Part shown: positions 1,687-19,605 of the stretch, in pieces
How the letters are laid out: every line of letters begins with the position of its first letter
How positions within the stretch are numbered: the stretch's first letter is position 1
Virus record (IMG/VR): IMGVR_UViG_3300025164_001337
Span: 1 to 24,064 of that record
Source: a virus
Reading direction: 5' to 3' (one strand)
Length of the DNA stretch: 24,064 bases
Program-made: the position numbers and the translations under genes
The notes under the pieces: model-generated
Seen by the model: only the letters and a program-made list of their open reading frames with translations
The model's database searches: none
What the model was told of the DNA's origin: nothing

Positions 1687-4600
1687 ATGCCGAAGCCAAA
1701 ACCAGGTCAATCTCAAGACGACTTCGTGGCCATGTGTGTGCCGATGGTGCTTGATGAAGGTACGGCAAAAGACCAGGACCAAGCCGTGGCTATATGCAAT
1801 TCAATGTATGAAGAGCACGGCAAGCAGGCTCATGCGATGGGGCCAGGTGACGACGAATCTGAGTCCGACTGGATGGGGCGATGTGTATCGGAGATGGAGT
1901 CCGAAGGCAAAGACAAGGATGAGGCACAGTCTGCTTGCGAGACGATGTGGCAGCACCATCAGGAACGATCTGCCATGGTTCCAAGCCGGAAAGAAGAATT
2001 GCATGTCAACGAAGGAGAGAGCCAGTCTGAGTTTATCGATCGATGCGTCGCCAAACAGGACGGCATGGACGAAAGCGAAGCTCGGGCTGCTTGCCAGAAG
2101 ATATGGGAGCACCGCAACCAATCGGAGCAAAGGCCTGAAGCTTCAATGCACGAATCATTTGTCGCCAGGATAAAGGGCCGTCGCAATTCCATATCTCGTT
2201 TTGGATACGGTATCACGACGGCAGAGCCATACGTCCGTGCTTTGCTGCAAATGGAAGAGTCTGGTTGCTCGACGGGCCGCACTTGCTCCGTTGAATCACT
2301 TCTCAAGGAGGCTCAATCACGTCTCTGTTGTTCAACGCCCCATATGACCCTAGAGAGTATCGCGACAGCCAAAGACCTTTTTTTAGGGCGGCTGGACGGC
2401 ATCGGCGTCTCTGGCCTTGAGCCTCCCCCCAAGACGCTGATGCTGCTCCGCCACGTAGTCACGACTGACAAGCAGGACCGAGACGGCGACGTACTGGAGA
2501 CTGCTGGGTTCGAGTTGGACCCAGCGGCACCGCTGTTGTGGCAGCACCAGCCGTTTCTGCCGATCGGCAAGGTGCTGCGAGAGGTGGAGCACACGGCACA
2601 CAAGCTGACGGTGATCTCGGCACTACTGGACATGAACGAGTTGACACATGATGCGGCAGTGCTGTTTGAGGCAGACGCACTGCGGTTTAGCCATGGTTTC
2701 CGCGTCCTGGACTACGATGCCATGATGGACGAGAAAGGCGCGGAGACTGGCTCATTCCGGATCAAGAGAGCCGAGGGCCTTGAAGTCTCTGGCGTAAGCG
2801 TGCCGAGCAATACCGATGCTGTGGTGGAGTTGTGGAGCCGCGGCAAGTTCGAGTCAGACGTCGTGCGCTCGTACGCCAAGCATTACGCGAGCAAGCGGCC
2901 TGTGCAGGTGCGAGGTATCGACATCAGGACGAAGCATGTGCAGCCGTTCAACATGAAGAAGATACAGTCGGAGTTTCACCCTGAGCACCAGCGAGCATAT
3001 GCAGCTGTACCAGTGCACGACTGGGCATCGCAATGGTTGGAGTGCGAAGTCAAGGACTTGTACATTACCAGCACGTTCGCGCCATATTTCGCGATGGGAA
3101 ACTTCCTGTCTGCCATGAAGATAGCGATGGACTCGGCCAATCTTCGCGACACGAGGAACCTGGATGACTACGGCCACGATTGGCCGATCAAACGAGAAAC
3201 AGTGCAGTTGAACTCCAAGAAGTCTGACACCTTCATTGTGAATGGCTTTCAATTCTGGACTTGTGACAATCATAAGTGTTGCCTCGACTTGCAGAGATAT
3301 CACGACGGATTGGAAATCAGACGCTACGACGTGGACGACCGCGGCGTTAAGTTCTTTGAGGATTGCTGGGAGTGGGTGCGCGAGAACAATTACCTCAAGG
3401 GCGAGGCATTCCGACTGGGCGGCGGGTTTATTGAACGCAAAGGCCAGTCGCTAGACGAAATCTTTTTGGTTGACGGCAACAAGATCGCACTCAAACGCGC
3501 TGTCAAGTTGGCCAGCAGCGGAACCCAATTCGCCAGCCGAGGCATGATCTTTCTTGGGCCTCCAGGCACTGGCAAGACACTCTCGGCCAGGGCATTGCTT
3601 AACAACACGGATGCTACATTCATCTGGGTCAGTGCTAAGGATATGTATGGCGCCTCGAGCATCAGCATGGCGTTCAAGATTGCAGGTGAGCTCGCGCCGT
3701 CGATTATCTGCTTCGAGGACATTGATTCGTTCTTCAGTGATTATGCTTTCGATCTGCTGAAGACGGAGCTTGATGGACTCGACAAACGCACCGGTGTTTT
3801 GACGCTCCTCACTACGAACTATCCAGCCATGCTTCCCGAGACTTTGATCGACAGGCCAGGCAGGTTCCACGACGTGCTGCAATTCGACTTGCCGGACGAG
3901 CATTGCAGACGGGACATGTTCCGTGTGTGGTCTGCCTCTGCATCCAACAATCTCATTGAGGACATGGTGAAGCGGACAGCTGGGTTCAGCGGCGCCCACA
4001 TCAAGGACCTCTGTTCGTTCGCGGACGTGCTGAGGCGCGACGACGACATGCAGATCGATGAAGCGCTCGAGAAGGCCTACGGAAAAGTCTCTGAGCAGCG
4101 ACGTCTGGTGAGAGGCCTGTCGTCGCAGCAAAGAATGCGGCGAGACTATTCCAAAATGGACATCGCTGTGTCAGTATTGGAGAAGATTTGTCCTGCCTGT
4201 GCCAAGAGGGCCAGGGCCAAAGGGTTCAAGTCTGTCAAGCTCGACAAAGCTGTGAGTGCAGAGATGGTTGCCGGGCTATGTGACGCAGTTGGTAGCGATC
4301 CTGGATTTTTCAGCAACTGCATGGAATTCGACTTCGGCGAGTTCGAGGGGGAGATCGGGAGCAAAGAGGGCTTTTGCAATTGGCTGCATGAGACGTGCGG
4401 TTTCGGATACCCAGGGGAACACGAATCAGCCGTTGTGCGGATCAAAGCCGGCCGCGTGATATCGCAGAAGAACATGGACCTGCTGGGTGAAGTGCGAGCT
4501 GACTTGGAGGAGCTTTCTGGCATGGAAATGGCGAGAGCTGCCAAGGCTTTGTGTGAACGATGCGCGAGCAAAGTGCAGAGCGTAATTGAATCGGCAAAGC

Positions 4601-4866
4601 CGGCGGAAGAGCCGGAAGGCAAGAGCGTCTGTATGGGCCACGTCCACATGACAGTAGACGACATGGAGCCGCTCATTACCGATGTGATCAAGAAAGAGGT
4701 TGCTGCTAAGCAACCCGATCTAACCGATGTGGTCAACTTCGTCCTTGGTGCAAGTCAAGACGATCTGGCCCGCGTTAAACATACGTTGGACTTGGTGGTC
4801 GACCTCACGGCGTACAACGCCGCTGCGGAAGAGTACCGGGCCTTCGAAAGATCGATTGATTTGTAA
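1687..4866 (+). CDS. HK97-type prohead protease fused to AAA+ ATPase
   Basis: This is a 1059-residue multidomain protein. Residues about 8-145 hold three related repeats of the pattern [DE]F/W..RC...(D/E)EA..AC..MW.H. Residues about 245-400 match the prohead (U35/S78-like) protease fold: WQHQP with the likely catalytic His287, RFSHGF with the likely Ser335, and LEVSGVSVPSN near 365-375. Such proteases cut scaffold and capsid N-termini during head maturation. Residues about 505-800 form a AAA+ module with Walker A GPPGTGKT (624-631), Walker B IICFEDID (673-680), sensor-1 TTN (709-711) and DRPGRF (722-727) carrying an arginine-finger candidate. The last 250 residues include CPAC and CERC pairs and a helical end. 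Most phage prohead proteases are about 200-250 residues and lack an ATPase. The frame is continuous across every junction. The gene lies 18 bases upstream of the capsid gene, as expected for a head protease. Confidence 0.88.
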   Translation: MPKPKPGQSQDDFVAMCVPMVLDEGTAKDQDQAVAICNSMYEEHGKQAHAMGPGDDESESDWMGRCVSEMESEGKDKDEAQSACETMWQHHQERSAMVPSRKEELHVNEGESQSEFIDRCVAKQDGMDESEARAACQKIWEHRNQSEQRPEASMHESFVARIKGRRNSISRFGYGITTAEPYVRALLQMEESGCSTGRTCSVESLLKEAQSRLCCSTPHMTLESIATAKDLFLGRLDGIGVSGLEPPPKTLMLLRHVVTTDKQDRDGDVLETAGFELDPAAPLLWQHQPFLPIGKVLREVEHTAHKLTVISALLDMNELTHDAAVLFEADALRFSHGFRVLDYDAMMDEKGAETGSFRIKRAEGLEVSGVSVPSNTDAVVELWSRGKFESDVVRSYAKHYASKRPVQVRGIDIRTKHVQPFNMKKIQSEFHPEHQRAYAAVPVHDWASQWLECEVKDLYITSTFAPYFAMGNFLSAMKIAMDSANLRDTRNLDDYGHDWPIKRETVQLNSKKSDTFIVNGFQFWTCDNHKCCLDLQRYHDGLEIRRYDVDDRGVKFFEDCWEWVRENNYLKGEAFRLGGGFIERKGQSLDEIFLVDGNKIALKRAVKLASSGTQFASRGMIFLGPPGTGKTLSARALLNNTDATFIWVSAKDMYGASSISMAFKIAGELAPSIICFEDIDSFFSDYAFDLLKTELDGLDKRTGVLTLLTTNYPAMLPETLIDRPGRFHDVLQFDLPDEHCRRDMFRVWSASASNNLIEDMVKRTAGFSGAHIKDLCSFADVLRRDDDMQIDEALEKAYGKVSEQRRLVRGLSSQQRMRRDYSKMDIAVSVLEKICPACAKRARAKGFKSVKLDKAVSAEMVAGLCDAVGSDPGFFSNCMEFDFGEFEGEIGSKEGFCNWLHETCGFGYPGEHESAVVRIKAGRVISQKNMDLLGEVRADLEELSGMEMARAAKALCERCASKVQSVIESAKPAEEPEGKSVCMGHVHMTVDDMEPLITDVIKKEVAAKQPDLTDVVNFVLGASQDDLARVKHTLDLVVDLTAYNAAAEEYRAFERSIDL

Positions 4867-4884
4867 CCAATAGGAGTAGTTTAT

Positions 4885-6483
4885 ATGTTGAAACTGACCG
4901 ACAATTTGAAGTCTTGGCTTCGTCAAAACAAGGGCGTAGCTGAGGATGCAGATGATGCTAGTTACACCAAAGCTGTGGCAGAAGGGATTTGCGACGGTAG
5001 CATCACGCCTCAGCAGGTCACTGAGCTAACCAAGGACCCGGACGCCGACAAGGCCAGTGTACTTACCAAGACGTTGACGTCTATGCAGGATGCCATGGCG
5101 GCAATGGCCAACCAAGTTGCGACGCTGTCAAAGCCAGCGGATCAGAAGGCCAGACCGACAAGCAATGTCACGACGAGCATGATCGTGAGTGCGGACCCTG
5201 TCACTGGCGGTGAGCCGAATATCCGCCACATCACGGCGGACAAGCAGTACTCGACGACCAAGACGGCTTTGACGTTTCCGCTCAAGGAAGCCAACGGACG
5301 AAGTCACCCGAAGGCCAACCAGCGAGTCATGGATATTGGCCGATACATTGATGAACCGAGCGAGTTGGATCGTGCCGTGAATGGGGCCTATGGGAAGATG
5401 ATGATCTTCGGACCGCTCATTGCCAGAGGCATCATGCCGAAGTCAATCATTACTGATCACGACAAAGAGTTGATCCAATATGCGGCGAGGAACATGAATT
5501 GGATCGGCTGCATCCGCGAGGTCGGCGATGACGAGCTTTACGGCGGCAAGGATGTCTACAACCGTCGACTCACCGAGTGGGAAGTTAAGCAGGTGCTAGA
5601 CGAGAGCGGCGCCAGCCAAGGTTTGGAGATCGTGCCAATCGTATTCGACGACTCGATCTTAACTCAGCCATTGCTCCACTCAGAACTTTATCCTCGTGTC
5701 GAGGTGGTGAACATTCCTCGGGGACGCCGGATTGAAGGTGGGGTCGTCGCGAATCCTACGATCACTTGGGCGGATACCGAGGCAACGCAGGTTCCACTCG
5801 TGACGACGACTGCGTTCGTGGGAGCGTTCGACACCAACATCCATGTCGTGCAAAGTGCGATCCTGCTTGGATTGGACTTCCTGTCTGACACGCCGATCGC
5901 ATTTGGCGACTTGCTGACACGGAATTACGGAGAAGTGCTGCTGCACGACCTTGACCGCGTGATCGCGGTTGGCAACGGCACGACGGAGCCTGATGGCGTG
6001 TACAACGCCAGCGGCTCGACGAATGTCACTGTCGATGCAGGTTCGTGGACGACAGGCAAGCTGATGGAGCTGATGTTTGGCGTGCCCAAGGAGTACAGGA
6101 CAGGAGACAGAAACCGAATTTGTTATGCCGCCAATGAGACTACTTACCGCCGGATTCGGCAAATTGCCACTGGCGTCACTGGTGACGATCGATTCCTGTT
6201 TGGCAACGACGTCGAGACCTACACGCTTCTTGGCCACCCATTTTTGATCCAGGGTGACTTTGGTAATGCACAGGCAGTGTTCTGCAACTTTGCGCATTAT
6301 CGCATGTACAAGAGGCTTGGGCTGCAGATCAAGTCGACTACCGAGGGCCAGACGCTCGTACGGAACAACCATATGCTCGTGTGTGCACGTGCGAGGTACG
6401 GCGGCCAGTTGGCACAGCCTGCTATTGGTGGAACACCTTCTACTGGCATGTACGTGGCCCATACGGCCAACGGGCAAGTGTAG
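4885..6483 (+). CDS. HK97-fold major capsid protein
   Basis: This 532-residue protein follows the protease gene and has a strong ribosome binding site (AGGAG at 4872-4876) before ATG 4885. Residues 1 to about 110 are helical and charged, as in a scaffold-like delta domain removed by a prohead protease. The remainder has the character of an HK97 capsid protein: an E-loop-like charged stretch, a long spine-helix region, and the typical late segment with RNRICYAANETTYRRIRQI, a GHPF...GDFGNA motif and a C-terminal QIKSTTEGQTLVRNNHM region. The product would form the icosahedral shell. Cleavage by the adjacent protease is inferred from gene order and N-terminal character, and the cleavage site cannot be read with certainty. 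The gene is followed by a very stable hairpin that may limit read-through or protect the message. Confidence 0.88.
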   Translation: MLKLTDNLKSWLRQNKGVAEDADDASYTKAVAEGICDGSITPQQVTELTKDPDADKASVLTKTLTSMQDAMAAMANQVATLSKPADQKARPTSNVTTSMIVSADPVTGGEPNIRHITADKQYSTTKTALTFPLKEANGRSHPKANQRVMDIGRYIDEPSELDRAVNGAYGKMMIFGPLIARGIMPKSIITDHDKELIQYAARNMNWIGCIREVGDDELYGGKDVYNRRLTEWEVKQVLDESGASQGLEIVPIVFDDSILTQPLLHSELYPRVEVVNIPRGRRIEGGVVANPTITWADTEATQVPLVTTTAFVGAFDTNIHVVQSAILLGLDFLSDTPIAFGDLLTRNYGEVLLHDLDRVIAVGNGTTEPDGVYNASGSTNVTVDAGSWTTGKLMELMFGVPKEYRTGDRNRICYAANETTYRRIRQIATGVTGDDRFLFGNDVETYTLLGHPFLIQGDFGNAQAVFCNFAHYRMYKRLGLQIKSTTEGQTLVRNNHMLVCARARYGGQLAQPAIGGTPSTGMYVAHTANGQV

Positions 6484-7316: not shown

Positions 7317-7517
7317 ATGCTCAATAGCAGAATCAAGGCACAGAGACCATCCCGAATTGGCGAAGGTGGCGATTGTGTTTACTGCAATGGCGTTGGCCGA
7401 ATACGAATGAAGATTGCCGGGGGAGATCGCGGTAGGAGCAATCGTGCAAAGCAGACAAAAGTGTGTGCTTACTGTCGTGGGACTGGTAAGGCAACGAAAG
7501 GATATTTGACAAAGTGA
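7317..7517 (+). CDS. Small CxxCxGxG zinc-finger-like protein
   Basis: This is a 66-residue basic protein. The frame is open further upstream, but the extension would run through the terminator. ATG 7317 has a strong GAGGAGG just upstream, so this start is preferred. Two motifs, CVYCNGVG (Cys20, Cys23) and CAYCRGTG (Cys50, Cys53), match the CxxCxGxG zinc-binding repeats of the DnaJ cysteine-rich domain. Together they can bind one zinc ion. The surrounding Arg and Lys could contact nucleic acid or a protein partner. It overlaps the connector gene by four bases (GTGA). The function is unknown. A chaperone-like or assembly role is only a guess from the motif. Confidence 0.72.
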   Translation: MLNSRIKAQRPSRIGEGGDCVYCNGVGRIRMKIAGGDRGRSNRAKQTKVCAYCRGTGKATKGYLTK

Positions 7518-8326
7518 TAGCCAACCAGGACGACATCAAGTTGCTACTGGGGTTGTCCTCGTCCATTACGGATGAGGAGCAGGGGTTTCTGTCGTTGGTG
7601 CATCCATTGGCTGAAGGACTCGTCAAGCAATACCTCAAATACGATCCGGAGCAGAAGTCGCACACCGAATACTTTCCGAGGCACCTGCGGAGCGGCGGGC
7701 CAGGATACGATTACGAGGGGCGCTGGACGTCACGTAGTGGCCTGGCGATATGGGAATCGCGAGATAGCGACAACACGCTGCAGCTGACACATCTGCCATT
7801 GCGGCGCATCACTAGTGTGCGAATTGATACGGCAGCCAAGCATGGCGATGCTGCCAATAGCTTCGACTTAGACACAGTGCGCACCCAAGGCATAGATTAT
7901 TGGGGCGATTGGGATCAGACGAACGTGGGCTACAGCGGTGAGCTTTACTCATATGGCTCATGGCCGAGCGAGCCCGGAACAGTCAAGGTCGTGTACCGAG
8001 CGGGCTACTCGCCGGCTGAATTGCTGGGCACGGCGACTGAGGATGCACTGGTAGGCGATGTGATCACGACTGCCGGTGTGGACGGATCGGGAATAACGCG
8101 GGCTGTCCATATCACGGTGATCTCGCAGTTTCTAAAAAATATGGCATTGAAGAAGAAGGATATCGCCGGCTTCACACCTGGAGCACTGCTTGGCGAGCGA
8201 TTGGGCGACTATAGCTATCAGGTTGACAGGGGGACATTTGGGGCAGCAGGTCTTGCCGTCTCGCTGCCGGATGAGGCCAAGGAGCAACTCGAGGCATATA
8301 GACACTGGGGGCTCGCGAGACTATGA
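7514..8326 (+). CDS. Head-tail connector protein (gp6-like)
   Basis: This is a 270-residue protein starting at GTG 7514, which overlaps the preceding stop. The N-terminal half, with DDIKLLLGLSSSITDEEQG and a helix containing LAEGLVKQYLKYDPE, resembles gp6/gp15-type connector proteins that form the ring under the portal. A later LTHLPLRRITSVRID segment and a VVYRAGYSP segment are also typical of longer members. The C-terminal part, about residues 190-270, has the helix ITRAVHITVISQFLKNMALKK that often ends these proteins. It is longer than HK97 gp6 (about 110 residues). The order connector, closure protein and gp10-like protein supports the call. It shares an ATGA overlap with the next gene. 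Confidence 0.75.
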   Translation: MIANQDDIKLLLGLSSSITDEEQGFLSLVHPLAEGLVKQYLKYDPEQKSHTEYFPRHLRSGGPGYDYEGRWTSRSGLAIWESRDSDNTLQLTHLPLRRITSVRIDTAAKHGDAANSFDLDTVRTQGIDYWGDWDQTNVGYSGELYSYGSWPSEPGTVKVVYRAGYSPAELLGTATEDALVGDVITTAGVDGSGITRAVHITVISQFLKNMALKKKDIAGFTPGALLGERLGDYSYQVDRGTFGAAGLAVSLPDEAKEQLEAYRHWGLARL

Positions 8327-8691
8327 GCCTGTTGGAAAAACTTCCGCACACGGTAAGCCACCTGCGCAAGACATACGCGAGGGACCAGTACATCGGCAAC
8401 ACGACGGACACAGAGGAGTTGGCCACGAGCGTGCGTTGCTGGATCCAGACAGTCGGACAGTCGGAGGTGCAGCAGTATGAGAAGGCGGACCAGTTGATCA
8501 CGCACAAGGTGTACTACAAAACGCAGCCGACATTGCGTCCTGGAGACCTGATTCGCGTGACGGCCGGGCCAAGCTATGTCGGAAAAGACTTCAACTTTGA
8601 ATCACTTGCTGATGCATCTGCCGGTTTAGGGAAGTTATTCAAGGTGATGGTGAACGAAGAGAATAACGTACCAGTTACGTTTGCAGGATAA
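8323..8691 (+). CDS. Head closure / head-tail adaptor protein
   Basis: This is a 122-residue protein whose ATG overlaps the preceding stop (ATGA). Size and sequence style fit the small beta-barrel head-closure family: a charged N-terminal stretch, then strands around VRCWIQTVGQSEVQQYEK, THKVYYKTQPTLRPGDLIRV and LGKLFKVMVNEENNVPVTF. The phrase with 'LRPGDLIRV' is characteristic of the strand-turn region of such adaptors. The product would sit beneath the connector ring and close the head after packaging. The call depends strongly on position between connector and gp10-like genes. Confidence 0.68.
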   Translation: MSLLEKLPHTVSHLRKTYARDQYIGNTTDTEELATSVRCWIQTVGQSEVQQYEKADQLITHKVYYKTQPTLRPGDLIRVTAGPSYVGKDFNFESLADASAGLGKLFKVMVNEENNVPVTFAG

Positions 8692-9296
8692 TGGCCATGC
8701 CGCGTTTTACCGTCGGAGGAGCAGTTACCGAGGGGATAGTGAAGGCCGGAGGAGTGCACTCGGCCGAAGCGTTGGGCATCCATTTGGAGCCACGCCTGGT
8801 AGGAGGAGTGACACTCGGAGCAGAGCGAGGAATTTCTAAAGGCACATTCCGAAGCGTGAAATCGGCTGTGTCGCGGATGTCCAAGATACGCACTGGCAAA
8901 ACAGAAGCCACTGTCGTCTGGAACGGCGAGAAGCTCGAGAAAATCCTAGAACTTGAATTCTCTAAGCGGATCAAGCTTGCTACGCAGCTGGTCAAGGACC
9001 AAGTAAAGCTGAATCTCAACAGGTCGGTGTTGAAGTATAAGGGGCCTATAAGCAAGAAGATACGAGTATTGCCAGAAAGCCGCTCGAGACCAGGCGAGTT
9101 TCCGCGAAAAGAGACTGGCGATTTGCAGAAGAATATCTTCGGCGAGACGCCACGTCCCGACTGGGGTGTTGTAGGGACAACGTATGGTTATGGCTTGTTG
9201 CTTGAGACGCAGATGAATAGATCGTACCTACGTCGGACGCTGCTTGAGATGCAGCCGAAGATCAGGCAGATACTGGTGAAGGCAGTTTCACTTTGA
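8691..9296 (+). CDS. HK97 gp10-like neck/tail protein
   Basis: This 201-residue protein starts at ATG 8691, sharing one base with the previous stop (TAATG). Residues about 80-201 carry the signature of gp10-like neck proteins: a long basic amphipathic helix (KLEKILELEFSKRIKLATQL), then SRPGEFPRKETGDLQKNI near residues 130-147, then a GVVGTTYGYGLLLE strand. The N-terminal 75 residues are an extra glycine-rich region not typical of the family, containing hydrophobic GGV/GGA patches. The family acts in the neck or at the head-proximal end of the tail. The downstream tail-completion paralogues fit this placement. Confidence 0.72.
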   Translation: MAMPRFTVGGAVTEGIVKAGGVHSAEALGIHLEPRLVGGVTLGAERGISKGTFRSVKSAVSRMSKIRTGKTEATVVWNGEKLEKILELEFSKRIKLATQLVKDQVKLNLNRSVLKYKGPISKKIRVLPESRSRPGEFPRKETGDLQKNIFGETPRPDWGVVGTTYGYGLLLETQMNRSYLRRTLLEMQPKIRQILVKAVSL

Positions 9297-9297
9297 A

Positions 9298-9477
9298 ATG
9301 ATACACCCAGTTGTCAAAGTATGGCAACATAGTATGGAGCAGGCGAGCAAAGACGAGCAGGAGCAGTCTATGGCCAAAAACACATGTGTTCGGTGTGGCA
9401 GGCCGGTAATCGGCATAGCGAGTACGCAGAACATCTTGTGCCGCGCCTGTGCAAGGGACTTGTTCGGTGATGACTGA
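9298..9477 (+). CDS. Small zinc-ribbon protein
   Basis: This is an open frame of 59 residues filling the gap between two supported genes. The ATG at 9298 lies one base after the preceding stop. A second in-frame ATG at 9370 has a better ribosome binding site (AGGAG at 9359-9363, six bases away) and would give a 35-residue protein. Both versions contain CVRCG and CRAC, a CxxC...CxxC zinc-ribbon pattern 15 residues apart, and both end four bases into a TGATGG junction with the next gene. The packing and motif support a real gene, but its role is unknown. Which start is used cannot be settled from sequence. Confidence 0.6.
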   Translation: MIHPVVKVWQHSMEQASKDEQEQSMAKNTCVRCGRPVIGIASTQNILCRACARDLFGDD

Positions 9478-11681
9478 TGGCTACGGAGGCAGGTACGTGG
9501 CGACTGGACGAGGCGATCGCGGCACACTGGGAATCAAGAGGGCTCGACACCGACTTCCGCGCCGAATGGCTCGATCCGACTGCGATGGAGTACGAGCCGC
9601 TGCACGACGGGATGGCCAGACCGGAGCCGCCAGGTCCGTACTGCGTGTACGAGAAAGACGAGCCGGAGATACTGGCGAGGATGACAGGGATTGACAACAG
9701 CGGAGACGATAGGGAGTTGCAACGGTGGACGTTTCGATTCAAGGTGCACGCACAGGATACGAGCAGCGAGAGCGCGAAGAGCATTGCTCAACGGCTGGCG
9801 AAGAAGATCGCTGCCGCCTTCGACCCCCACAATGCTATCCAATTCGATGGCGTTGCGCATGTCGTGACGGAGCGGGGCCCGGATTGGCACGACCAGGAGG
9901 GGGAACAAGAGGCGTCGTGGACGCTGCAGTTCTCGATTCTGGTGGACGCGACAGTGGGAGCCTTCGGCGGCGAGGCCGAGTTCAGTTCGAGCAGCAGCTC
10001 GTCCGAAACGTTGACCAGCTCAATGTCGTCTTCCTCAAGCTGCTCGAGTGTTACGGAGCCTATTGCTGAGGAGGATGATGTGCTGGACTTCGGCGATATC
10101 GGTGGCGTGTACGACAGCCAGGCAGCAGCCGTAGCCAACCGGGCTGCGCTCATCGCCTATCTCACCACCCGTGTCAACGAGCCTGTCGAGCTGGGGTTCC
10201 GCGGACCTGTGGACTATCTCGACAGTAAACGTCAGCCGGCCAATGTCTACCTGGACCTGTCAGCTGGGGCGATCGCGATCACTGTGGGCGGGTCCGGAAA
10301 TATGTCGCACCTGACGTTCTTCGGTGGCTCGAAGATCTTCGGCGTGAATGCGGCCACGCCGGCAACGCCGATCTTCCAGATCACGCGCGGGTCGGGGCAG
10401 ATGCCTCGTGTTGTGATTCGAGGCCTGGCTTTCGAGTCCGATGGGTCCGTGATCAAGTTCGTCTACGGGGGATCGGGTGTCGTGCTGGAGGATGTCAAGA
10501 TCGATGACTTCACTGGGGCTGGGTCAATCGACCACGAGGACTGGACCGACGTGGAGGCCGAGACCTGCAGCTACGGCGTCTGGCTGGAGGATGCCGACGG
10601 GGCCCGGATCCAGAACCTGCAGATCAAGCAGGGTAGCGGCCACGGGATCGTGGCCACCAGGCTGCATGCCGGGGACGTCGATGCCCGGATTCAGTTGTGT
10701 GAGGGTGCCGGATTCAAACTGCAGCAGTTCAACGGCAATCGTGCTCACCTCTGGGCCGAATCCTGCAATGGCTACGGGCTTCTGGCCCGTGACTGCGGCG
10801 GCGACCGGCGGAGCGGAGGGGTCAAGGTCGCGAACGATGGGGCGCCGAATGACTGGAGGGCATGGTTTGAGGCCAACAACGGGCGAGGCACGAGCCACGG
10901 GGCCAGCGGCTACAGGTTCTCCCAGTTTAAACTGGCCAACTGCACGAGGATCAAGATGGCTGGCCACAGCGGCTGGCGGGACAATCAGGCGAGGCTCGAC
11001 AGAATATCTCGGTTGCGGAATGAGTTCGTCGAGGACTACTACCTAGACCCGAGCGTGGATCCTGACTTGTATTTGGTAGGTGCAGCCGGGGCCGGCGACG
11101 AATACCTAGTCAACGTCGCGAACATCACGCTGCCGCCGGCTGGGTTCGGCAACGCGAGTTGCACGAACTGGGACACGGTTTGGACAGACCCCGGCGACAG
11201 GCCGACAGCGACGATCGTTGGGAGCGGGACGGCGAGCGACCCGGAGCGGATTCGGATCACTTGGCCCGGCGGCTGCTTCGACGCCACGAGTGGGACAGAC
11301 ACAGCCTACTGGAGACCGTTCTGGGCCGTGGCCTTGAGCTCGCCTGGAAGCTATTTTTTCACTGCTCAAATCAAGGCAACGACATCCGTCGCAGGGACAT
11401 ATTGTGCATCTCGGGAAAGCTTATCGGTGGCGAATCGCCAGACGAACTCGCTTGGCAGCTTCTCGATTGCACCAGTGTCTGGGGCCATCACGGGGCTGAC
11501 GCTTTGGGACACGCACAGCCGTTGGCTCAGCGGTTCATTTACGGTGGACGATATCCGGTCTGACATCTCGCCACAATTTGCCGCTTGGGATAACGGCATG
11601 CAAGATCTGGACGGGGACGCCAGTCAAGACACCGAAATTATTGTGGATATTTACCAACTGAGGCTTTACAAGTTTGTGTGA
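9477..11681 (+). CDS. Tail-completion-like domain fused to beta-helix spike
   Basis: This is a 734-residue protein in four parts. Residues 1 to about 165 are paralogous to the whole next gene, sharing GLDT, ARPxPPGPYxVYEK, ESAKSI.xRLAK, AFDP and RGPDxH in order. By position and size this looks like a tail-completion or tail-terminator protein. Residues about 169-191 are a short Ser-rich linker. Residues about 205-505 have repeated short strands with Gly/Asn turns, as in right-handed beta-helices of phage spikes and pectate-lyase-like enzymes. Residues about 545-734 form a separate, probably beta-sandwich, C-terminal domain. A spike fused to a neck or tail-completion component is unusual and suggests a neck-borne depolymerase or adhesin. 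The DNA of the beta-helix part is visibly richer in G and C than its flanks. Catalytic residues cannot be assigned. Confidence 0.72.
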   Translation: MATEAGTWRLDEAIAAHWESRGLDTDFRAEWLDPTAMEYEPLHDGMARPEPPGPYCVYEKDEPEILARMTGIDNSGDDRELQRWTFRFKVHAQDTSSESAKSIAQRLAKKIAAAFDPHNAIQFDGVAHVVTERGPDWHDQEGEQEASWTLQFSILVDATVGAFGGEAEFSSSSSSSETLTSSMSSSSSCSSVTEPIAEEDDVLDFGDIGGVYDSQAAAVANRAALIAYLTTRVNEPVELGFRGPVDYLDSKRQPANVYLDLSAGAIAITVGGSGNMSHLTFFGGSKIFGVNAATPATPIFQITRGSGQMPRVVIRGLAFESDGSVIKFVYGGSGVVLEDVKIDDFTGAGSIDHEDWTDVEAETCSYGVWLEDADGARIQNLQIKQGSGHGIVATRLHAGDVDARIQLCEGAGFKLQQFNGNRAHLWAESCNGYGLLARDCGGDRRSGGVKVANDGAPNDWRAWFEANNGRGTSHGASGYRFSQFKLANCTRIKMAGHSGWRDNQARLDRISRLRNEFVEDYYLDPSVDPDLYLVGAAGAGDEYLVNVANITLPPAGFGNASCTNWDTVWTDPGDRPTATIVGSGTASDPERIRITWPGGCFDATSGTDTAYWRPFWAVALSSPGSYFFTAQIKATTSVAGTYCASRESLSVANRQTNSLGSFSIAPVSGAITGLTLWDTHSRWLSGSFTVDDIRSDISPQFAAWDNGMQDLDGDASQDTEIIVDIYQLRLYKFV

Positions 11682-11683
11682 CC

Positions 11684-12190
11684 ATGGCTATCCCAAACAC
11701 CAGAGGAAGCTGGACGCTTGACGGAGCCATCAACCAGCGGTGGGACGACGCCGGCCTGGACACGACGATCAAGCTGGAGTGGCCTGCAGCGGACAGATTG
11801 ATTGACAAGTACCAGGCGTTGAACGACGGGTTTGCGAGGCCTACACCTCCAGGCCCGTACGTAGTGTACGAAAAGTCGATCCCGGTCGTGATGGCCCACA
11901 TGAGCGGCCACACTGCGGCGCAGCGGGAAGACCAGTTGCAGCAGATACTCGTGGCGTTCCGGATTCACGCCAAAAGTACTGCGGCCGAGTCTGCCAAGTC
12001 GATCTGCATCAGACTTGCGAAAGAGGTAGCCGAGGCATTTGATCCAAATACGGCACCTTGGGAGATGACAGACGACAAGATAGTGATCGTGAAGCGAGGA
12101 CCTGACTTCCACGCGAGAGAAGACGACGATGAATGGGTGTGGGTGCTGCAGTATGACGTACTGATTGACGCGGAGTATCTGCAGGCGTGA
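11684..12190 (+). CDS. Tail-completion-like protein, paralogue of preceding gene
   Basis: This 168-residue protein aligns along its length with the first 165 residues of the preceding gene: SWTLDGAI with TWRLDEAI, GLDT, EW, FARPTPPGPYVVYEK, ESAKSI.IRLAK, AFDPNTAP and RGPDFH. ATG 11684 is preferred because it starts the protein at the same point as its paralogue. A GTG at 11678 overlaps the preceding stop and would add two residues. The size (about 150-170 residues), alpha/beta character and position after the gp10-like gene fit a tail-completion (tail terminator) protein that caps the tail tube and joins it to the head. This unfused copy is the better candidate for the ordinary role. Family assignment rests partly on gene order. 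Confidence 0.62.
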   Translation: MAIPNTRGSWTLDGAINQRWDDAGLDTTIKLEWPAADRLIDKYQALNDGFARPTPPGPYVVYEKSIPVVMAHMSGHTAAQREDQLQQILVAFRIHAKSTAAESAKSICIRLAKEVAEAFDPNTAPWEMTDDKIVIVKRGPDFHAREDDDEWVWVLQYDVLIDAEYLQA

Positions 12191-12193
12191 CAA

Positions 12194-15100
12194 ATGGCCA
12201 ACCGTTCGGCGGAGAGCGATATCCAGCTTCTGGTCAAGTCGACCATGATGCTCACTGTCGACGATGGATGGCGGACGAGCGTAAAGGTGGGCGGCTGGGT
12301 GTTGAAGCAGCATTTGCTGACTGGAGTGGAATCCGATCAGGCGAATCGAGGTTGGGGGTACGAGGGTACGATAGCGAGCGGGAATGTGGTTGACTTAGAC
12401 CTCTACGACATGGCTGGACTGAACACCGGCGGCGGGGCTGGCCGTGATGGGCTCGGCCAGGCTCTGGCCATGGAGGAGATCGTATCTCTGGGGATCGCGA
12501 AGATTTCCGGTAGCGGGCAATTGGAGGTCATGCCTACACAGCCAGCCAACTATCTGACATGGGTACCGCCACTCACGGTCGCGGATGGAAATGCCCTGAA
12601 GACTGACGGCGTGGCGCTCATGCATCAGTCGCACACAGATGCGTTTGATGTCGAGGATGGCTCGAGTCACGTTTTGCGTCTGGGTGCCAACGGCGGCGAC
12701 GTGACATACCGTGTCTACCTAATCGGCCGCCATGACGACCAGTTGTCCTCCAGCAGCACGCTGTCGACATCTTCACTCAGTTCCATGACGACATCTGTCT
12801 CTGGTAGCTCTGTCAGCAGCTCGAGCTCTCTCTCCGTGTCGTCCTCGAGTTCGTCCCTCTCAGTTTCATCATCGTGCTCTTCTCTGTCTATGTCTTCATC
12901 CTCGAGCTCGCTATCCGTTAGTTCCTCGAGCAGCAGTCTATCCGTGTCGTCAAGTTCGTCGAGCTCGCAGTCTATCTCGTCTGTGACGATAACTTCATCC
13001 TCGCAAAGCGTAAGCTCATCCAGCTGGTCCAGTTTCAGTTCGAGCCTGAATTCATCCTGCAGCACGATTGCCAGGACCAGTTCTTCAACATCGAAGAGTT
13101 GTTCGAGCCAAACGATGTCCACATCGAGCTCGATGGAATCCGGTGTTACGTCCTCGTCCAGCAGCACGGCTGGGAGAACTACGTCTAGTACAGTCGGCCA
13201 GTCGACAACGTCTGTCTCGAGCAGCGTGGGGCGGACTACCTCGAGCTCCAGCACGGTAGCCAGCGTGACATCATCGACTGTCGCCAGGACGACGTCGTCG
13301 AGCTCAAGCTCCGAAAGCTCATCCTCAAGTACCGTTGCGAGATCGACATCAAGTACCGTGGCGCGATCTACTTCCAGCACAATCGGCGAAACTACGTCTA
13401 GCACGGCTGCTTCACTGACCTCCTCCAGTTCGTCCACCTCTTCGACAATCGTTGAAACAACGTCCACGAGCTCGTCAATCACAGGATCCATTGAGAATCT
13501 GCAGGCTACCGTGTGGGCCTACAACCAGATCAGCCTCTCGTGGGACGCAACCGGGGTGAACTGGTACGACGTGGAGGTGCAGGACGGTGGCGGGCGGTGG
13601 AACCACGTGCGGAGCGTGTACGACAACGGGGTGGATATGGCCGGCTTCGATGCGGCCACGACATACAGTTTTCGCGTGCGAGGAGTTGAGAATACTTGGC
13701 CGGACTGGAGCTACACCGACTACTCGGCTGTGGTGACGCCTACGACCAGTGCATATCAGGCGGCTCCCACGTTCACCGTCACGGACGACACATCTTGGAA
13801 CACGGCCTATGTCAACGCAGAGGCTGGCGACGTTATAGAGATTCTGCCGGGAACAGTCCTGACAGAGAAGACGGCGCCGCCATGGCGAGTTGGATCCGGT
13901 AAGTTCGTCACAATCCGATCCGCTGCCATGGCATTACTGCCAGGTTTTGACCAGCGGATTGGACCAAGTGATATCGGCAACATGCCGATGTTTCGCACAC
14001 GACAGCAAGTTGCCGGCGCAATGCATGTTGGCCCAGGAAGTCACCATCTCTCTTTTGAGGGTATTCGTTTTGAAGCCGATCAACCGACGCAATACCGCGT
14101 GAATTACATCGTTGTGTTTAACGAAGCTTTCCAAGATGTTAACAACGATCCGTATGACATCGAGTTTCATCGGTGCTGGGTCGAGAGCCCGAGGCCAGGT
14201 ACAGTTTTCGGTGCGACGACATTTACGGAATGCGATTCAGGATTTTACAGTTATGGTGCAGATCGCGTTGTGATCAAAGACACTTATTGCAAGGAGCTGT
14301 CTGCAGAAACGCAAGATGCGCCATCGATTGGTGGGACGCGCGGTAAGGAATGGGCAGTAAACAACTGCCATCTTGAGGGGAGCATGCCAGTGTTCTGGGG
14401 CGGTGCGAGCCATCCAGAAACTGACGTGTTGCCAGACTTGCACAGCTATCGCCGCAATCACATCGTCAGGCCTACATATTGGATTCCGACGGAGGCCGAC
14501 TACGACGGGCGATCCCGCAACCGCAAAAACATGTTTGAAATCAAATATGGCCAGCGGTTCCTGATTGAGGACAACTATTTCCAACGTGGTTATTGCACAG
14601 ATTCTTATGTCGTGATTCTGACGCCACGTGCTGACATTTCCTGGTCTGGCATTTACGACGTGCAGATTCGATACAATCACTTCGACACGATTGACGGAGG
14701 ATTCAGGATTGCAGGAAGCGATGGCTTGTACTCGCCACCGAATGATGGCTTTGCAACAAAGCGACTAACAGTATCGCACAATTTGATCGAGGATTTTGGT
14801 AAACTTTCGCAGCTCGGCAAGCGAGAATACGAGTTTAATACATCCTCGCCAGAATGGGATCGTTTAGAGGACATCTGTTTCCGCCGCAACAGTTGGGTAA
14901 CTGACGAGTTGTCCGGTCTGACGCCTTGGTTTTCACCTACCAATGCTGTTGCGCTTTGGGAAGATGGCTTCGGGCTTGTCGGCCAGTTCATTTACGAAAA
15001 CAACATCACATGTGGACTACTCGGCAGAGACGGTGGTGCGAATGACATAACTGTATTGTCATATGTCATAGGAGATAATCGCTGGACCTTTGAGAATAAC

Positions 15101-15334: not shown

Positions 15335-17380
15335 ATGTCGAATGTGATCAAAACAATCGGTTCTGGTGGAACATTTGCTAGTGTTCAGGCGTGGGCTGAT
15401 GACATAAATACAAATGCGAATGGCTTCTATATCTCTGGTGATATCGCTATCGGCCAGGTATTAAATGACTTGTCGACAGCCAGCGGAAGCCATGTATCAT
15501 TTGCTGCAGCCAATGGCACGAATCCGATCTCCAAGGCGATACTGGAGCCATCATCTGGAAATGCAAATAATGGCATTGTTGCAGGCGGCATAGTTCTAAC
15601 CCAGACTAACGGAGATAACTATGGGATATACCTTGCTGCTGCCGTAGATTATCACGTAGAAATTCGAGATCTGGAGATTTACCGCAATCAGTCGTCTGGC
15701 GGGACAAACGACTTTAGCCTGATACACAATGCGTGCACCAATTCCATTGAGTTAATAGTCAAGCGATGCATTGTCCATACTAATCAATTTGGTGCAGCAA
15801 CAGGAACGCCCATTGGAATCAAGGGTATTTCGGCTGGGGCTACAACACGTGCAGTGCGGTGCCTGGTCTTCGACATCGGAAATCCAACAACCGGATTTGG
15901 GATTGGAATTGCCGATGCGGTGACGATTCACAACTGCTGTGTGTATAATTGCGCTGGCAACGGCATCGGCAGTGACAATATCTTCCACGATGTTCGCAAC
16001 TGCATATCGATGGATAACGGCTCCACGGACTACGCTGGTGCGTGGGCCGCCACAAAAGATCGGAACATGTCATCGGATGCCACAGCGCCGGGCACGACTG
16101 TCTACATTAATAAAGTCAGTACAGCGATCTGGACAGCTCCTGGTAGTGACGATTTTACACTCCAGCTCGGAACTGACGCCATCGGAACCGGCCAGGACTT
16201 GGGCAGCGGCTACGAACAAAACATCGACATCAAACATGACTTGATTGCCGGAGAGGTATGGGACCTTGGGGCATTCCAGTCTGGCGAGATGAGCACGTCC
16301 AGCACGGTGGCTCGCTCTAGTTCCAGCACAGTGGCACGCTCGACATCCAGTACCGTGGCTCGTAGCTCGTCCTCGCAAACTGAGTCTGAGTCGTCTCTCA
16401 GTACCGAAAGCAGCTCGACAACATCGTTCTCATCTTCCAGCACGGCGGCGATGACGACGTCTTCCTCATCCTCGAGCAGCAGTTCCACGAGCTCGTCCTC
16501 GAGTTCAAGCACCGAGGCAAGAACAACATCCTCGTCCTCCTCTACTTCTTCGTCCTCTTCGTCGACTTCTTCGTCTTCGTCATCATCCTCTTCTACCTCT
16601 TCCTCAAGTTCTAGCAGCAGCTCCACGAGCTCGTCCTCGTCGACGGCAGCGCAGATGACTTCGTCGTCGTCTTCCTCGGCCAGTAGCTCGACATCTTCGT
16701 CGACTTCATCCTCATCAACTTCTTCATCCTCCTCGCTTTCGACTTCGTCTTCATCCTCTCTATCAACTTCGTCGTCTTCCTCTTCGACGTCATCTTCGTC
16801 TTGCAGCGGGACAGATCAGGCCATTGGCACTCGGACCTTATCAGCCTCGCTCAAGTTATTTATGTCATCGACGATAACAAACGTGATTGACGATGGGTCA
16901 TCCGCAAGTGTTGCGGCCATGAAGGGCCGGTTGCTGGATCTGGTACTGACGACAGGGATCGCCGACAACAAGGCAACTCGGGCTTGGCGATTGAAAGACG
17001 GATCAATCGGCTCTGGGTCCACCAAGGACATTGACTTGTACGATCTGGTTGGCGAGGACATCGGTGCTGGTGACGGGCGAGATGCACTCGGGCAGCTTAT
17101 GGTCCAGAAACAAATAGTAGCCTTCGTTCTCGAGAAGACTGGCGGCGCGGGTTTGCTCGAACTGATGCCTACCAACCCTGCCAACTACTGCACGTGGGTT
17201 CCAGTCCTTACGGTCGCAGCTGGGAATGCATTGAAGACTGGAGGTCTTGCGTTGTTGGTTCAGCCGGCTGCGTCCGCTCTTCGCGTGACAGATGCTTCGA
17301 GCCACAAGATGCGCTTGGGTGCCAGCGGTGGCGCAGTGACATACGATCTGTGGCTGGTTTCTCGGCATTACGGAACATAA
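15335..17380 (+). CDS. Modular fibre: beta-helix, poly-Ser, repeated domain
   Basis: This is a 681-residue protein whose ATG directly abuts the previous stop. Residues 1 to about 315 look like a beta-helix, with an N-terminal GTFASVQAWADDI segment and repeated short strands such as EIRDLEIYRN and HNCCVYNCAGNGI. Residues about 318-490 are poly-Ser/Thr with STVARSSSS and STAAMTTSS elements. Residues about 495-681 are a second copy of the domain found at the N-terminus of the preceding protein, including DIDLYD, MPTNPANY.TWVPVLTVA and GNALKTGG. The order is therefore reversed relative to that protein. The role is probably a virion surface adhesin or spike. The beta-helix part is visibly more AT-rich than the serine-rich part. 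The enzyme activity, if any, is unknown. Confidence 0.75.
   Translation: MSNVIKTIGSGGTFASVQAWADDINTNANGFYISGDIAIGQVLNDLSTASGSHVSFAAANGTNPISKAILEPSSGNANNGIVAGGIVLTQTNGDNYGIYLAAAVDYHVEIRDLEIYRNQSSGGTNDFSLIHNACTNSIELIVKRCIVHTNQFGAATGTPIGIKGISAGATTRAVRCLVFDIGNPTTGFGIGIADAVTIHNCCVYNCAGNGIGSDNIFHDVRNCISMDNGSTDYAGAWAATKDRNMSSDATAPGTTVYINKVSTAIWTAPGSDDFTLQLGTDAIGTGQDLGSGYEQNIDIKHDLIAGEVWDLGAFQSGEMSTSSTVARSSSSTVARSTSSTVARSSSSQTESESSLSTESSSTTSFSSSSTAAMTTSSSSSSSSSTSSSSSSSTEARTTSSSSSTSSSSSSTSSSSSSSSSTSSSSSSSSSTSSSSSTAAQMTSSSSSSASSSTSSSTSSSSTSSSSSLSTSSSSSLSTSSSSSSTSSSSCSGTDQAIGTRTLSASLKLFMSSTITNVIDDGSSASVAAMKGRLLDLVLTTGIADNKATRAWRLKDGSIGSGSTKDIDLYDLVGEDIGAGDGRDALGQLMVQKQIVAFVLEKTGGAGLLELMPTNPANYCTWVPVLTVAAGNALKTGGLALLVQPAASALRVTDASSHKMRLGASGGAVTYDLWLVSRHYGT
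16291..16803 (+). repeat. Poly-Ser/Thr coding tract
   Basis: About 170 codons are mainly Ser and Thr, connecting the beta-helix to the C-terminal repeated domain. STVARSS elements cluster at the start and STAAMTT, STEARTT and STAAQMT elements follow. Codons are mixed, as in the other tracts. Confidence 0.85.
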
Positions 17381-17393
17381 CAGGAGCAATTAT

Positions 17394-18161
17394 ATGTCGA
17401 CACGCAGTGCCGAGAGCGAAGTCAAGCTGACCTTCTCGGCAACGATCAAAAATACGCTGGACGACGGTCAAGTAGCTCAAGTCCTGCTGAGCGACACAGT
17501 GATCTCAGGCAATCTGGCCAGTGGCGTGGATGCCAATCAGGCGAACCGTGCCTGGGCACGCAAGAGCCATACCTTGGCCTCTGGCAATACAGAGGACATT
17601 GACCTCTATGACTTTGCCGACATCGATATCGGAGCTGGTCTTGGAAACGATGGATTGGGGCTCCCGATGGCACTCGAAGAGGTAGTTACGTTTTGCATCA
17701 AGCAAACATCTGGTGCAGGACGACTCGAATTGATGCCTACCAATCCGTCGAACTATGCGACGTGGGTGCCGCAGTTGACAGTCTCGCTCGGGTCTGCACT
17801 CAAGGCCGGTGGTCTGCTGCTGCTGCATCAGCCAGACGAGGATGCATTCGACATCGAGGATGGCTCATCGCACATGATGCGTGTCGGAGCTAACGGCGGA
17901 GATATCGTTTACGACCTCTATCTGGTTGGGCGACACGATGACGAGGCCTCGAGTTCCTCGAGTTCGTCCACTTCCTCTTCGTCCTCTTCCTCTACATCGA
18001 GTTGCACGACCAGTACGCTTTCGTCGCAGTCCACCTCCTCGAGTTCGTCTTCGTCGAGTTCGACGTCCTCGAGTTCCTCATCATCGTCCTCGTGCACATC
18101 GTCGTCTTCGACAGCGGCCAGGACGACCTCTTCGAGTAGTTCCTGTTCGACCACAACGTAA
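17394..18161 (+). CDS. Repeated-domain protein with C-terminal poly-Ser
   Basis: This is a 255-residue protein. Residues 1 to about 183 are the third copy of the domain also present in the two preceding genes, beginning RSAESE and containing NLASGVDANQANRAW, DIDLYD, MPTNPSNYATWVPQLTV and GDIVYDLYLVGRHDD. The rest is a poly-Ser/Thr tail with a few Cys and one STAARTTSS element, ending the protein without any further domain. It has a good ribosome binding site (AGGAG at 17382-17386, seven bases before ATG 17394). The gene looks like the minimal form of the module. It may be an independent virion decoration protein, or a remnant of a longer fibre whose C-terminal part was lost. It lies 18 bases upstream of the tail tube gene. 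Confidence 0.75.
   Translation: MSTRSAESEVKLTFSATIKNTLDDGQVAQVLLSDTVISGNLASGVDANQANRAWARKSHTLASGNTEDIDLYDFADIDIGAGLGNDGLGLPMALEEVVTFCIKQTSGAGRLELMPTNPSNYATWVPQLTVSLGSALKAGGLLLLHQPDEDAFDIEDGSSHMMRVGANGGDIVYDLYLVGRHDDEASSSSSSSTSSSSSSSTSSCTTSTLSSQSTSSSSSSSSSTSSSSSSSSSCTSSSSTAARTTSSSSSCSTTT
17947..18158 (+). repeat. Poly-Ser/Thr coding tract
   Basis: About 70 codons are mainly Ser, Thr and a few Cys, forming the C-terminal tail of the repeated-domain protein. TCN and AGY codons are mixed. Confidence 0.8.
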
Positions 18162-18179: not shown

Positions 18180-18713
18180 ATGAGTGGAGCAACAGTTCAG
18201 TCCGGGTCGGGCGGGAAAGTCCTGGCCCATAATGCGGATGAAGGCACCTGGTATTTGATCGCCAGAATCAGCCAATGGAATGCCAGCATCAGCGTACAGG
18301 AGGCGGCTTGGGGCGATTCTGACTCTGGAGGAAAAACTAATCGAGTTGCTGGTCGAGAAGACATCACTGGTACGATCACCGGCAAGCCAGACAAGGAACA
18401 TCCCCAGTACAACGATCTGCTGTGGGATGACACGAGCGAGCCAAACAACAAGAACATCGTTGCCATGATACTCTGGGAGGATGGCAATGAGACAACGCCG
18501 GAAGATTTCTTCTACTTGCCACGGGCGCTGATTAGTGTGTTTAACATCGGGATCGATAATGATACCAAGTTGCCCGTAGATTTCAGCGCCACATTCGGGG
18601 CCGATGGTACGTGGTTCAAGCCTCGCGAGACTGGCGTGGGTCAACTTACCGGCACGGCTGCAAGGGCGGCTCTCACTGCTGGAAACTTGCGTGATATCGA
18701 TCCTGTGCTGTAA
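18180..18713 (+). CDS. Major tail tube protein (probable)
   Basis: This 177-residue protein starts at ATG 18180 with AAGGAG close upstream. Its features fit a siphovirus tail tube protein: small size, a Gly-rich N-terminus, an early strand ending in ISQWNASISV, a loop with DSGGKTNRVAGREDITGTITG, and a C-terminal half of alternating beta strands. It lacks transmembrane or catalytic motifs. Position directly before the frameshifted tail chaperone and the tape measure gene is the normal place for the tube gene, and this is the main support. The product would polymerise into the tail tube around the tape measure protein. An alternative is a minor tail protein of the same fold. Confidence 0.7.
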   Translation: MSGATVQSGSGGKVLAHNADEGTWYLIARISQWNASISVQEAAWGDSDSGGKTNRVAGREDITGTITGKPDKEHPQYNDLLWDDTSEPNNKNIVAMILWEDGNETTPEDFFYLPRALISVFNIGIDNDTKLPVDFSATFGADGTWFKPRETGVGQLTGTAARAALTAGNLRDIDPVL

Positions 18714-18732: not shown

Positions 18733-19413
18733 GTGGACAACGTGAGTCTAGTGACCAGGAAGATGGGTAGCTACCCATTGCCTGATGGCAAGGAAGTTGT
18801 GCTGTACGGATTCAGCGCCTTCGAGTGGGCCGCTGTCCAGGAAGCGGCATTGGCCCATTACAAACGATCCATCATCAAGACTTGGACCGACAACCTGGAC
18901 TTGCTGCCGGAGGATATGCGTGATAGCGAGCTGCGCCGGGTGTATCGCGAGGCAGAGCAGATCACTTTCCGGGATCTGCCCAAGCGCAAGATGAAGTTCC
19001 CCACAATGAAGAATGGCCAACAACTCAAGGACGAGAAAGGAAACTGGCTCGAGCACGATGAGGACGTGGATTATGAGCAGTGGTGGTCAAGCGAGCTGTT
19101 GGAAGGAAAGGTGCATTGCATTTGGCTATCGGCTCGTAAAGCGCCTGGACAGGAGACGTGGACCAAGCAGTACGTTGCAGACTTGATTCGTGAGTCCGCG
19201 GCATATGAGCTGCAGAATGACCAAGATAGTGAGGAGAAAAGGCAAGTAGCTATCGAGGAGATGGCTCAGACAGTTGGCCGATTGAGCCAGCTTTCGCCAG
19301 AACTAAAAAACTCCTCACCCCCGCACGAGGCGGGGAACAACAAGCCGCTGACGGCCAGACAGAAGCGGATTCTAGAGAGGCAGAAGAGAACGCAGGCCCA
19401 AACTGGCCTTTGA
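18733..19413 (+). CDS. Tail assembly chaperone, N-terminal part (gpG-like)
   Basis: This is a 226-residue protein starting at GTG 18733, with AGGAG at 18719-18723. Residues 1 to about 130 are acidic and helical with a Trp-rich middle, and the C-terminal part is a charged, Gln- and Lys-rich helix. The gene lies between the tail tube and tape measure genes, where siphoviruses encode the gpG/gpGT chaperone pair that coats the tape measure protein during tail assembly. The A AAA AAC slippery sequence at 19305-19311, near the end of this gene, allows a -1 shift into the overlapping frame. The frame-shifted product would be about 289 residues, against 226 without slippage. Confidence 0.75.
   Translation: MDNVSLVTRKMGSYPLPDGKEVVLYGFSAFEWAAVQEAALAHYKRSIIKTWTDNLDLLPEDMRDSELRRVYREAEQITFRDLPKRKMKFPTMKNGQQLKDEKGNWLEHDEDVDYEQWWSSELLEGKVHCIWLSARKAPGQETWTKQYVADLIRESAAYELQNDQDSEEKRQVAIEEMAQTVGRLSQLSPELKNSSPPHEAGNNKPLTARQKRILERQKRTQAQTGL
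19305..19335 (+). promoter_or_regulatory. -1 ribosomal frameshift signal: A AAA AAC plus hairpin
   Basis: In the frame of the upstream gene the codons read CTA AAA AAC, giving the slippery heptamer A AAA AAC at 19305-19311. Seven bases later CCCCGC (19319-19324) pairs with GCGGGG (19330-19335) around a five-base loop. The -1 frame has no stop from 19311 to 19599. The heptamer, spacer, stem and open frame together are a textbook programmed frameshift element for a tail assembly chaperone. Confidence 0.85.
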
Positions 19414-19601
19414 TCTTCCGCGAATTGTGCGAGGCCTACCCCGGACTAAATCCCATGATACTTGAGCAAATGTCACAGAACCAGATTGTTTGGCTGCTAT
19501 GCGATAAAGAACGACTCAAGAACGGCGGCAAAATCACGCGCGGCACACCAAGCCAATTGCGAAAAATGGGATTGCTGCCAAGACGAAGATGGGGAGTGTG
19601 A
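19410..19601 (+). CDS. Tail assembly chaperone, frameshift extension (gpT-like)
   Basis: The reading frame in -1 register relative to the upstream chaperone gene continues from the slippery site to a stop at 19601. The 63-residue part after 19410 begins IFRELCEAYPGLNP and contains a conserved-looking hydrophobic Gln/Glu helix with NQIVWLLCDK. A TTG at 19410 could also start translation independently, but the slippery sequence and hairpin make the fusion product the more likely form. The extension plausibly contacts the tail tube, while the N-terminal part binds the tape measure protein, as in the phage lambda model. It ends four bases before the tape measure start. Confidence 0.72.
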   Translation: MIFRELCEAYPGLNPMILEQMSQNQIVWLLCDKERLKNGGKITRGTPSQLRKMGLLPRRRWGV

Positions 19602-19605
19602 TAAG

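Follow-up and report, generated by a model that had tools for sequence, protein, structure and literature searches.

The Vibrio phage XM1 carries six trimers of gp40 on its neck, held through an Ig-like domain and touching both the stopper and the terminator, with a tailspike-like C-terminal region that resembles Det7 gp208 (PMC10457771). In lactococcal phages of the 936 group and in TP901-1, the neck collar protein NPS has an N-terminal ring domain and serves accessory host binding; the 936-group proteins end in a beta-helix or a CBM, one CBM domain binds host cells, and the C-terminal beta-helix of NPS groups D and E is related to pectin and alginate enzymes (PMC6669499). The NPS anchor is a BppU-type beta-sandwich around the portal/adaptor (PMC10747895). 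The 936 phages also make plain and decorated (CBM-extended) forms of one ring protein, MTP-TpeX, by programmed frameshifting in one gene (PMC6669499). As for the terminator itself, phage 812 gp99 and PVC16 join an added domain to a terminator core; in the portions of the accounts considered here, these additions clamp the sheath or duplicate the core rather than act as adhesins, and a plain paralogue is not described there (PMC12886913; PMC11784142). Lambda gpU, T5 p142 and SPP1 gp17 are single-copy terminators without a spike.

The locus considered here lies in IMGVR_UViG_3300025164_001337, a tailed-phage record that was analysed over its whole length of 24,064 bases (the window). Two adjoining genes, T1 (9477-11681, 734 aa, no internal stop) and T2 (11684-12190, 168 aa; a GTG at 11678 may be its start), share a domain that matches lambda gpU, T5 p142 and SPP1 gp17 in predicted fold and gene order; unlike those terminators, it is present in two copies, and T1 continues into a probable beta-helix. 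The T1 architecture would be like that of gp99 and PVC16 in adding a domain to a terminator core, like XM1 gp40 in its tailspike-like C-terminal region (the Dettilon gp208 tailspike is a fold match of T1), and like NPS in the accessory host binding proposed for it at the neck. The anchors differ. The Ig-like domain of gp40 is followed by a coiled coil, with no terminator paralogue, on a contractile tail, whereas T1 has a terminator-fold N-terminal domain and a disordered linker, with no long helix predicted; a BppU-type N-terminal domain was matched in T1 by neither Pfam nor PHROGs. The T1/T2 pair also differs from MTP-TpeX, the plain and decorated forms here arising from gene duplication. The preliminary description of this DNA called neck spikes of this kind unusual, which goes too far given that gp40 and the 936-group NPS proteins are neck-mounted and tailspike-like. 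No terminator-spike fusion was found in the open-access papers searched, nor did the 50 top-ranked PDB fold matches include one; only the anchor of T1, a terminator paralogue, looks new, and its proposed function has precedent.

Gene order and the terminator-like domain

Every recognised gene in the window lies on the plus strand, as do all T1 segments given below, and the order is siphophage-like. A prohead protease fused to an AAA ATPase (1687-4866) and the major capsid protein (4885-6483) are followed by the head-tail adaptor (7514-8326, phrog_442), the head closure or stopper protein (8323-8691, phrog_615) and a tail completion (Neck1) protein (8691-9296, phrog_5, E=2e-6), the upstream neighbour of T1. 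Downstream of T2 come three genes with one common domain, D (starts at 12194, 15335 and 17394), the major tail (tube) protein (18180-18713), named through its homologue in a more distant phage, L010 (phrog_1407, major tail protein, E=3e-5), a probable chaperone (18733-19413) and the tape measure protein (19462-21141). The succession of tail completion protein, T1, T2, three paralogues, major tail protein and tape measure is that of lambda Z-U-V-G-T-H, and T1 and T2 thus occupy the position expected of a siphophage terminator. Between Neck1 and T1 lies a small unannotated plus-strand ORF (9298-9477) for a 59-aa zinc-ribbon-like protein with a CxxC...CxxC pattern, which has a counterpart at the same place in a diverged relative (L009, 3195-3353) and whose stop codon overlaps the T1 start (TGATGG). 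A promoter or RNA element in this gap was considered and rejected, since the small conserved ORF fills it.

Other features of the record and its relatives are noted for completeness. When the protease-ATPase fusion is compared with a relative (L015), the matching regions leave out residues ~417-919, which suggests that the ATPase was inserted between parts of the protease. A protein at 119-1252 joins a conserved head of ~110 aa to a tail of ~270 residues that are mostly Ser and Thr; the repeats also account for the long antisense ORFs that lie over such Ser-rich stretches. A distant relative (L019, 20268-21689) encodes a long protein of repeats in which a WxALPFxDDE-like motif recurs. As to the host, Lacipirellula limnantheis and another genome of the same phylum encode distant relatives of the major capsid protein (32-35% identity), a weak pointer from sequence to Planctomycetota and no further; among 392 genomes of that phylum, the terminator family gave only two weak partial matches (E 0.003-0.007), which we take as chance.

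The earlier claim that the N-terminus of T1 aligns with the whole of T2 holds. With T1 residues 1-174 as query, BLASTP aligned residues 6-158 with nearly all of T2 at 71 identities over 158 positions (45%, E=2e-46), a similarity that is, at the level of sequence, far beyond chance. No third copy of the domain is present in the record. Two bases separate the T1 stop codon from T2; in L009 the corresponding stop and start codons overlap (TGATG), which suggests translational coupling.

The preliminary description also took the shared domain for a tail terminator, and here the evidence divides, fold matches and a lambda-like gene order speaking for it while no sequence profile rose above its cut-off. 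An AF2 monomer prediction for T2, made on a five-sequence alignment, has a pLDDT of 78, a pTM of 0.77 and the element order H-H-E-E-E-H-E-E. The best 50 Foldseek matches of this model in the PDB are nearly all terminators of siphophages, myophages, GTA, T4 and pyocin-type particles; they include the PhiTE, E217 and Bas63 necks, lambda gpU (3fzb, E=5.5e-4, TMt 0.66), T5 p142, Chi, R4C, GTA and T4 gp15. The model has the beta sheet flanked by helices of the gpU/p142-type fold, and the N-terminal domain of T1 (residues 1-160, 9477-9956) receives the same class of matches, tail terminators ranking first for the T1 model. TM-scores on the T2 query are mostly 0.4-0.58, and the terminator call is therefore a fold-family assignment rather than one of close homology.

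Profile comparisons with terminator and completion families converge on one category, neck/tail terminator, but remain below the curated cut-offs of Pfam and PHROGs, a cut-off of this kind being an annotation threshold and not a functional requirement. The matches are PF23961 (best E=0.0025; E=0.05 for the T1 domain), phrog_1232 (E=0.038) and the Tail_completion_gp17 family (E=0.096); hhalign did not detect lambda gpU from the T1/T2 family. Comparisons by hhalign of the D domain and of the terminator domain with the tube protein were also negative. No sequence homologue of T1, T2 or the D domain was found in 50,697 phage records, and the genome scan with the terminator profile confirmed no match. 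Taken with the gene order, the predicted folds support the view that T2 and the N-terminal domain of T1 look like siphophage tail terminators.

Tailspike-like region and history of the fusion

Beyond the terminator-like domain, the serine linker, beta-helix of about 300 residues and second domain described earlier for T1 are a reasonable reading, with the helix running from about residue 200 to about 490 and the C-terminal domain covering ~520-734, the boundary being approximate. In our delineation, the serine-rich linker spans residues ~163-200 (9963-10076; Ser-rich window scan, pLDDT below 50), the predicted right-handed parallel, tailspike-like beta-helix ~201-519 (10077-11033, its C-terminal limit approximate) and the C-terminal domain ~520-734 (11034-11681, pLDDT mostly below 40). 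AF2 models T1 poorly as a whole (pLDDT 52); the result is usable over most of residues 7-120, ~145-160 and ~215-430, the linker being disordered and the model poor beyond ~438. Residues ~215-430 form a ladder of short beta strands in this model, and after the terminators its Foldseek matches are the phiAB6 tailspike (0.025), the Dettilon tailspike (0.038) and a polygalacturonase (0.076). The model, with sub-threshold matches to Pfam Beta_helix (E=0.028 in the window, 0.0049 in L009), supports a tailspike-like beta-helix as the predicted fold. The best BFVD match of T1, a large 892-aa protein of Vibrio phage 1.097.O, is consistent with such a module; we do not count it as an earlier terminator-spike fusion because this phage belongs to the short-tailed Schitoviridae and the match is presumably to its spike. 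Three further long BFVD matches (A0A6G5Y8Z8, A0A2Z3E950, A0A6C0RRM8) may include a precedent fusion.

Both T1 and T2 are present in three sister contigs. L009, a diverged phage from another sample set, has a fused gene of 696 aa that is 51% identical to T1 over 733 columns; identity is 52-54% over the spike part, with 59% in the helix and 46% in the C-terminal domain. Directly 3' of it lies a plain copy (5443-5946) that is 58% identical to T2, and the order of adaptor, closure, Neck1, zinc-ribbon ORF, T1, T2, D and tube is as in the window. The L009 fusion has a short non-serine linker without a serine run, so poly-serine is dispensable to the design. A more distant phage, L010, has a single plain copy between its Neck1 and D genes, nearer to T2 (42-43% identity) than to T1 (34-37%). 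In a tree of the five sequences, the two T1 domains group together with 99/100 support on a long stem branch, and the duplication therefore predates the split between the window phage and L009. The most economical account starts from an ancestral plain terminator, with tandem duplication and spike capture before that split; the deep node of the tree lacks resolution, and loss of T1 from L010 is an alternative. Only these two phage lineages are known to carry the fused form. Among other proteins of the relatives, L010 encodes at 2781-4460, between its capsid and adaptor genes, a protein that by eye has a beta-helix-like region, a poly-Ser stretch and a C-terminal domain, perhaps another neck or head decoration, and the upstream part of one sister contig (L014) encodes a protein that resembles, by eye, BNR/Asp-box sialidase repeats, together with a D-domain protein, the fourth, that ends in a short Ser tail (2277-3428 and 4562-5137).

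The head genes and T2 are 100% identical between the window and its sisters, and T1 differs at 33-35 sites concentrated at 9959-10293, a patch that takes in the linker and the N-terminal part of the beta-helix. Across the four near-identical contigs, 28 of the 33 variable T1 codons are synonymous; the five amino-acid changes fall at residues 175, 179, 181, 230 and 273, three of them in the linker. From these sequences, the variation reads as a recombined allele held in frame under purifying selection, neither decay nor hypervariation. A diversity-generating retroelement was rejected as a source of the patch since the changes are mostly third-position and synonymous. In the comparison with L009, in which synonymous sites are at or close to saturation, the helix and T2 each have a dN of 0.33, the T1 terminator domain has 0.34 and the C-terminal domain 0.53; the higher variability of the C-terminal domain would suit a target-contacting end.

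These data bear on whether the fusion could have arisen as an error of sequencing or assembly, or could belong to a duplicate in decay. Other parts of the record may be chimeric, as identity to the sister contigs falls sharply from 100% at ~16300, within a serine-rich repeat stretch of D2; beyond this point it is 85-87% for the D2/D3 domains, 63% for the tube protein, 60% for the chaperone and ~30% for the tape measure protein, and the switch may be either a tail-module exchange or an assembly chimera. The fusion, however, is in frame in all four near-identical contigs and in the independent L009 contig, and both T1 domains are under purifying selection. L009 rules out an artefact for the T1/T2 region, and we find it very hard to credit artefact or decay as the origin of the fusion.

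Proposed placement of the spike at the neck

We consider it probable that T2 is the tail terminator and that T1 is a duplicated terminator with a tailspike-like beta-helix, an accessory adhesin or depolymerase held at the neck. In this model, a T2 hexamer would close the head-proximal end of the tail tube and bind the head stopper. T1, a terminator duplicate whose C-terminus is joined to the beta-helix and C-terminal domain, would be anchored by its N-terminal domain at the head-tail joint, taking some of the six places of the ring or forming a second ring. From there, the spike would point sideways on its flexible linker and could meet host or environmental glycans ahead of the tail tip, as an accessory adhesin or depolymerase. 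Fold and gene order suggest the neck placement of T1; its presence in the virion, trimer formation and glycan function are likewise inferred. If the beta-helix trimerises as tailspikes do, the flexible linker would bridge the mismatch between three-fold and six-fold symmetry; the need for such flexible linkers wherever trimeric spikes sit on a hexameric ring counts against the model.

Beta-helix tailspikes usually sit at the tail tip, and T1 might accordingly belong to the tail tip or a fibre, having taken up a terminator-like domain solely as an aid to folding or docking. Such borrowing has some basis, terminator, tube and distal tail folds being treated as related building blocks in the relevant part of the T5 account (PMC11784142). 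Against this reading, the T1 N-terminal domain is 45% identical to the adjoining plain terminator and its gene stands in the neck block, not after the tape measure gene; we regard a tail-tip location as improbable.

Returning to placement at the neck, the parts of the structural accounts that deal with terminators in contractile particles put the C-terminal arm outside the ring, against the sheath (PMC12886913; PMC10491603), which favours outward display of the T1 spike. For the T5 terminator, the relevant part of the account locates the C-terminus within a subunit contact and reports that a C-terminal tag led to aberrant polymerisation into fibres (PMC11784142); a plain second copy would therefore be useful. 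T2 might supply a normal ring that accepts some T1 subunits; alternatively T1 might form a separate ring. We tentatively entertain a mixed T1/T2 hexamer in which the number of spikes per particle would be variable and set by the T1:T2 ratio.

In contractile tails, rings of the terminator type are stacked on one another, and it is possible, if less likely than not, that T1 and T2 form two separate stacked rings in the manner of T4 gp3/gp15, T2 capping the tube and T1 making a spike-bearing collar ring. The separate T1 clade on its long stem branch and the conservation of type-specific residues in two phages fit this arrangement, as does the match of the T4 gp15 fold to the T2 model. On the other side, the usual siphophage neck contains a single ring of terminator, placed between stopper and tube, and no sheath gene was recognised in the window. 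A comparison of T1 and T2 at the elements that make lateral and axial contacts in T5 and lambda does not discriminate mixing from stacking. On balance, we favour a shared ring over stacked rings by a small margin.

The same phage appears to apply a 'duplicate and decorate' scheme to a second protein family, that of D (genes at 12194, 15335 and 17394). The D domain, phrog_22694-like, occurs in three copies of 50-52% identity (12194-12748, 16817-17377 and 17394-17948), and the layouts are D, Ser, an fn3-like and a beta-strand-rich region; a beta-strand-rich module, Ser and D; and D with a Ser tail. L009 has only one D before its tube gene.

If T1 and T2 do mix, gene duplication would give the terminator its plain and decorated forms, as programmed frameshifting gives the major tail protein its plain and extended ones, and a spike-bearing terminator paralogue would show that a six-fold ring tolerates decorated subunits. 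Known neck spikes attach via separate collar proteins; a terminator-anchored spike would put the adhesin on the head-tail joint, a different and simple route to accessory adhesins. The T1/T2 pair is thus a directly testable case of adding a receptor-binding device while leaving the tail tip untouched.
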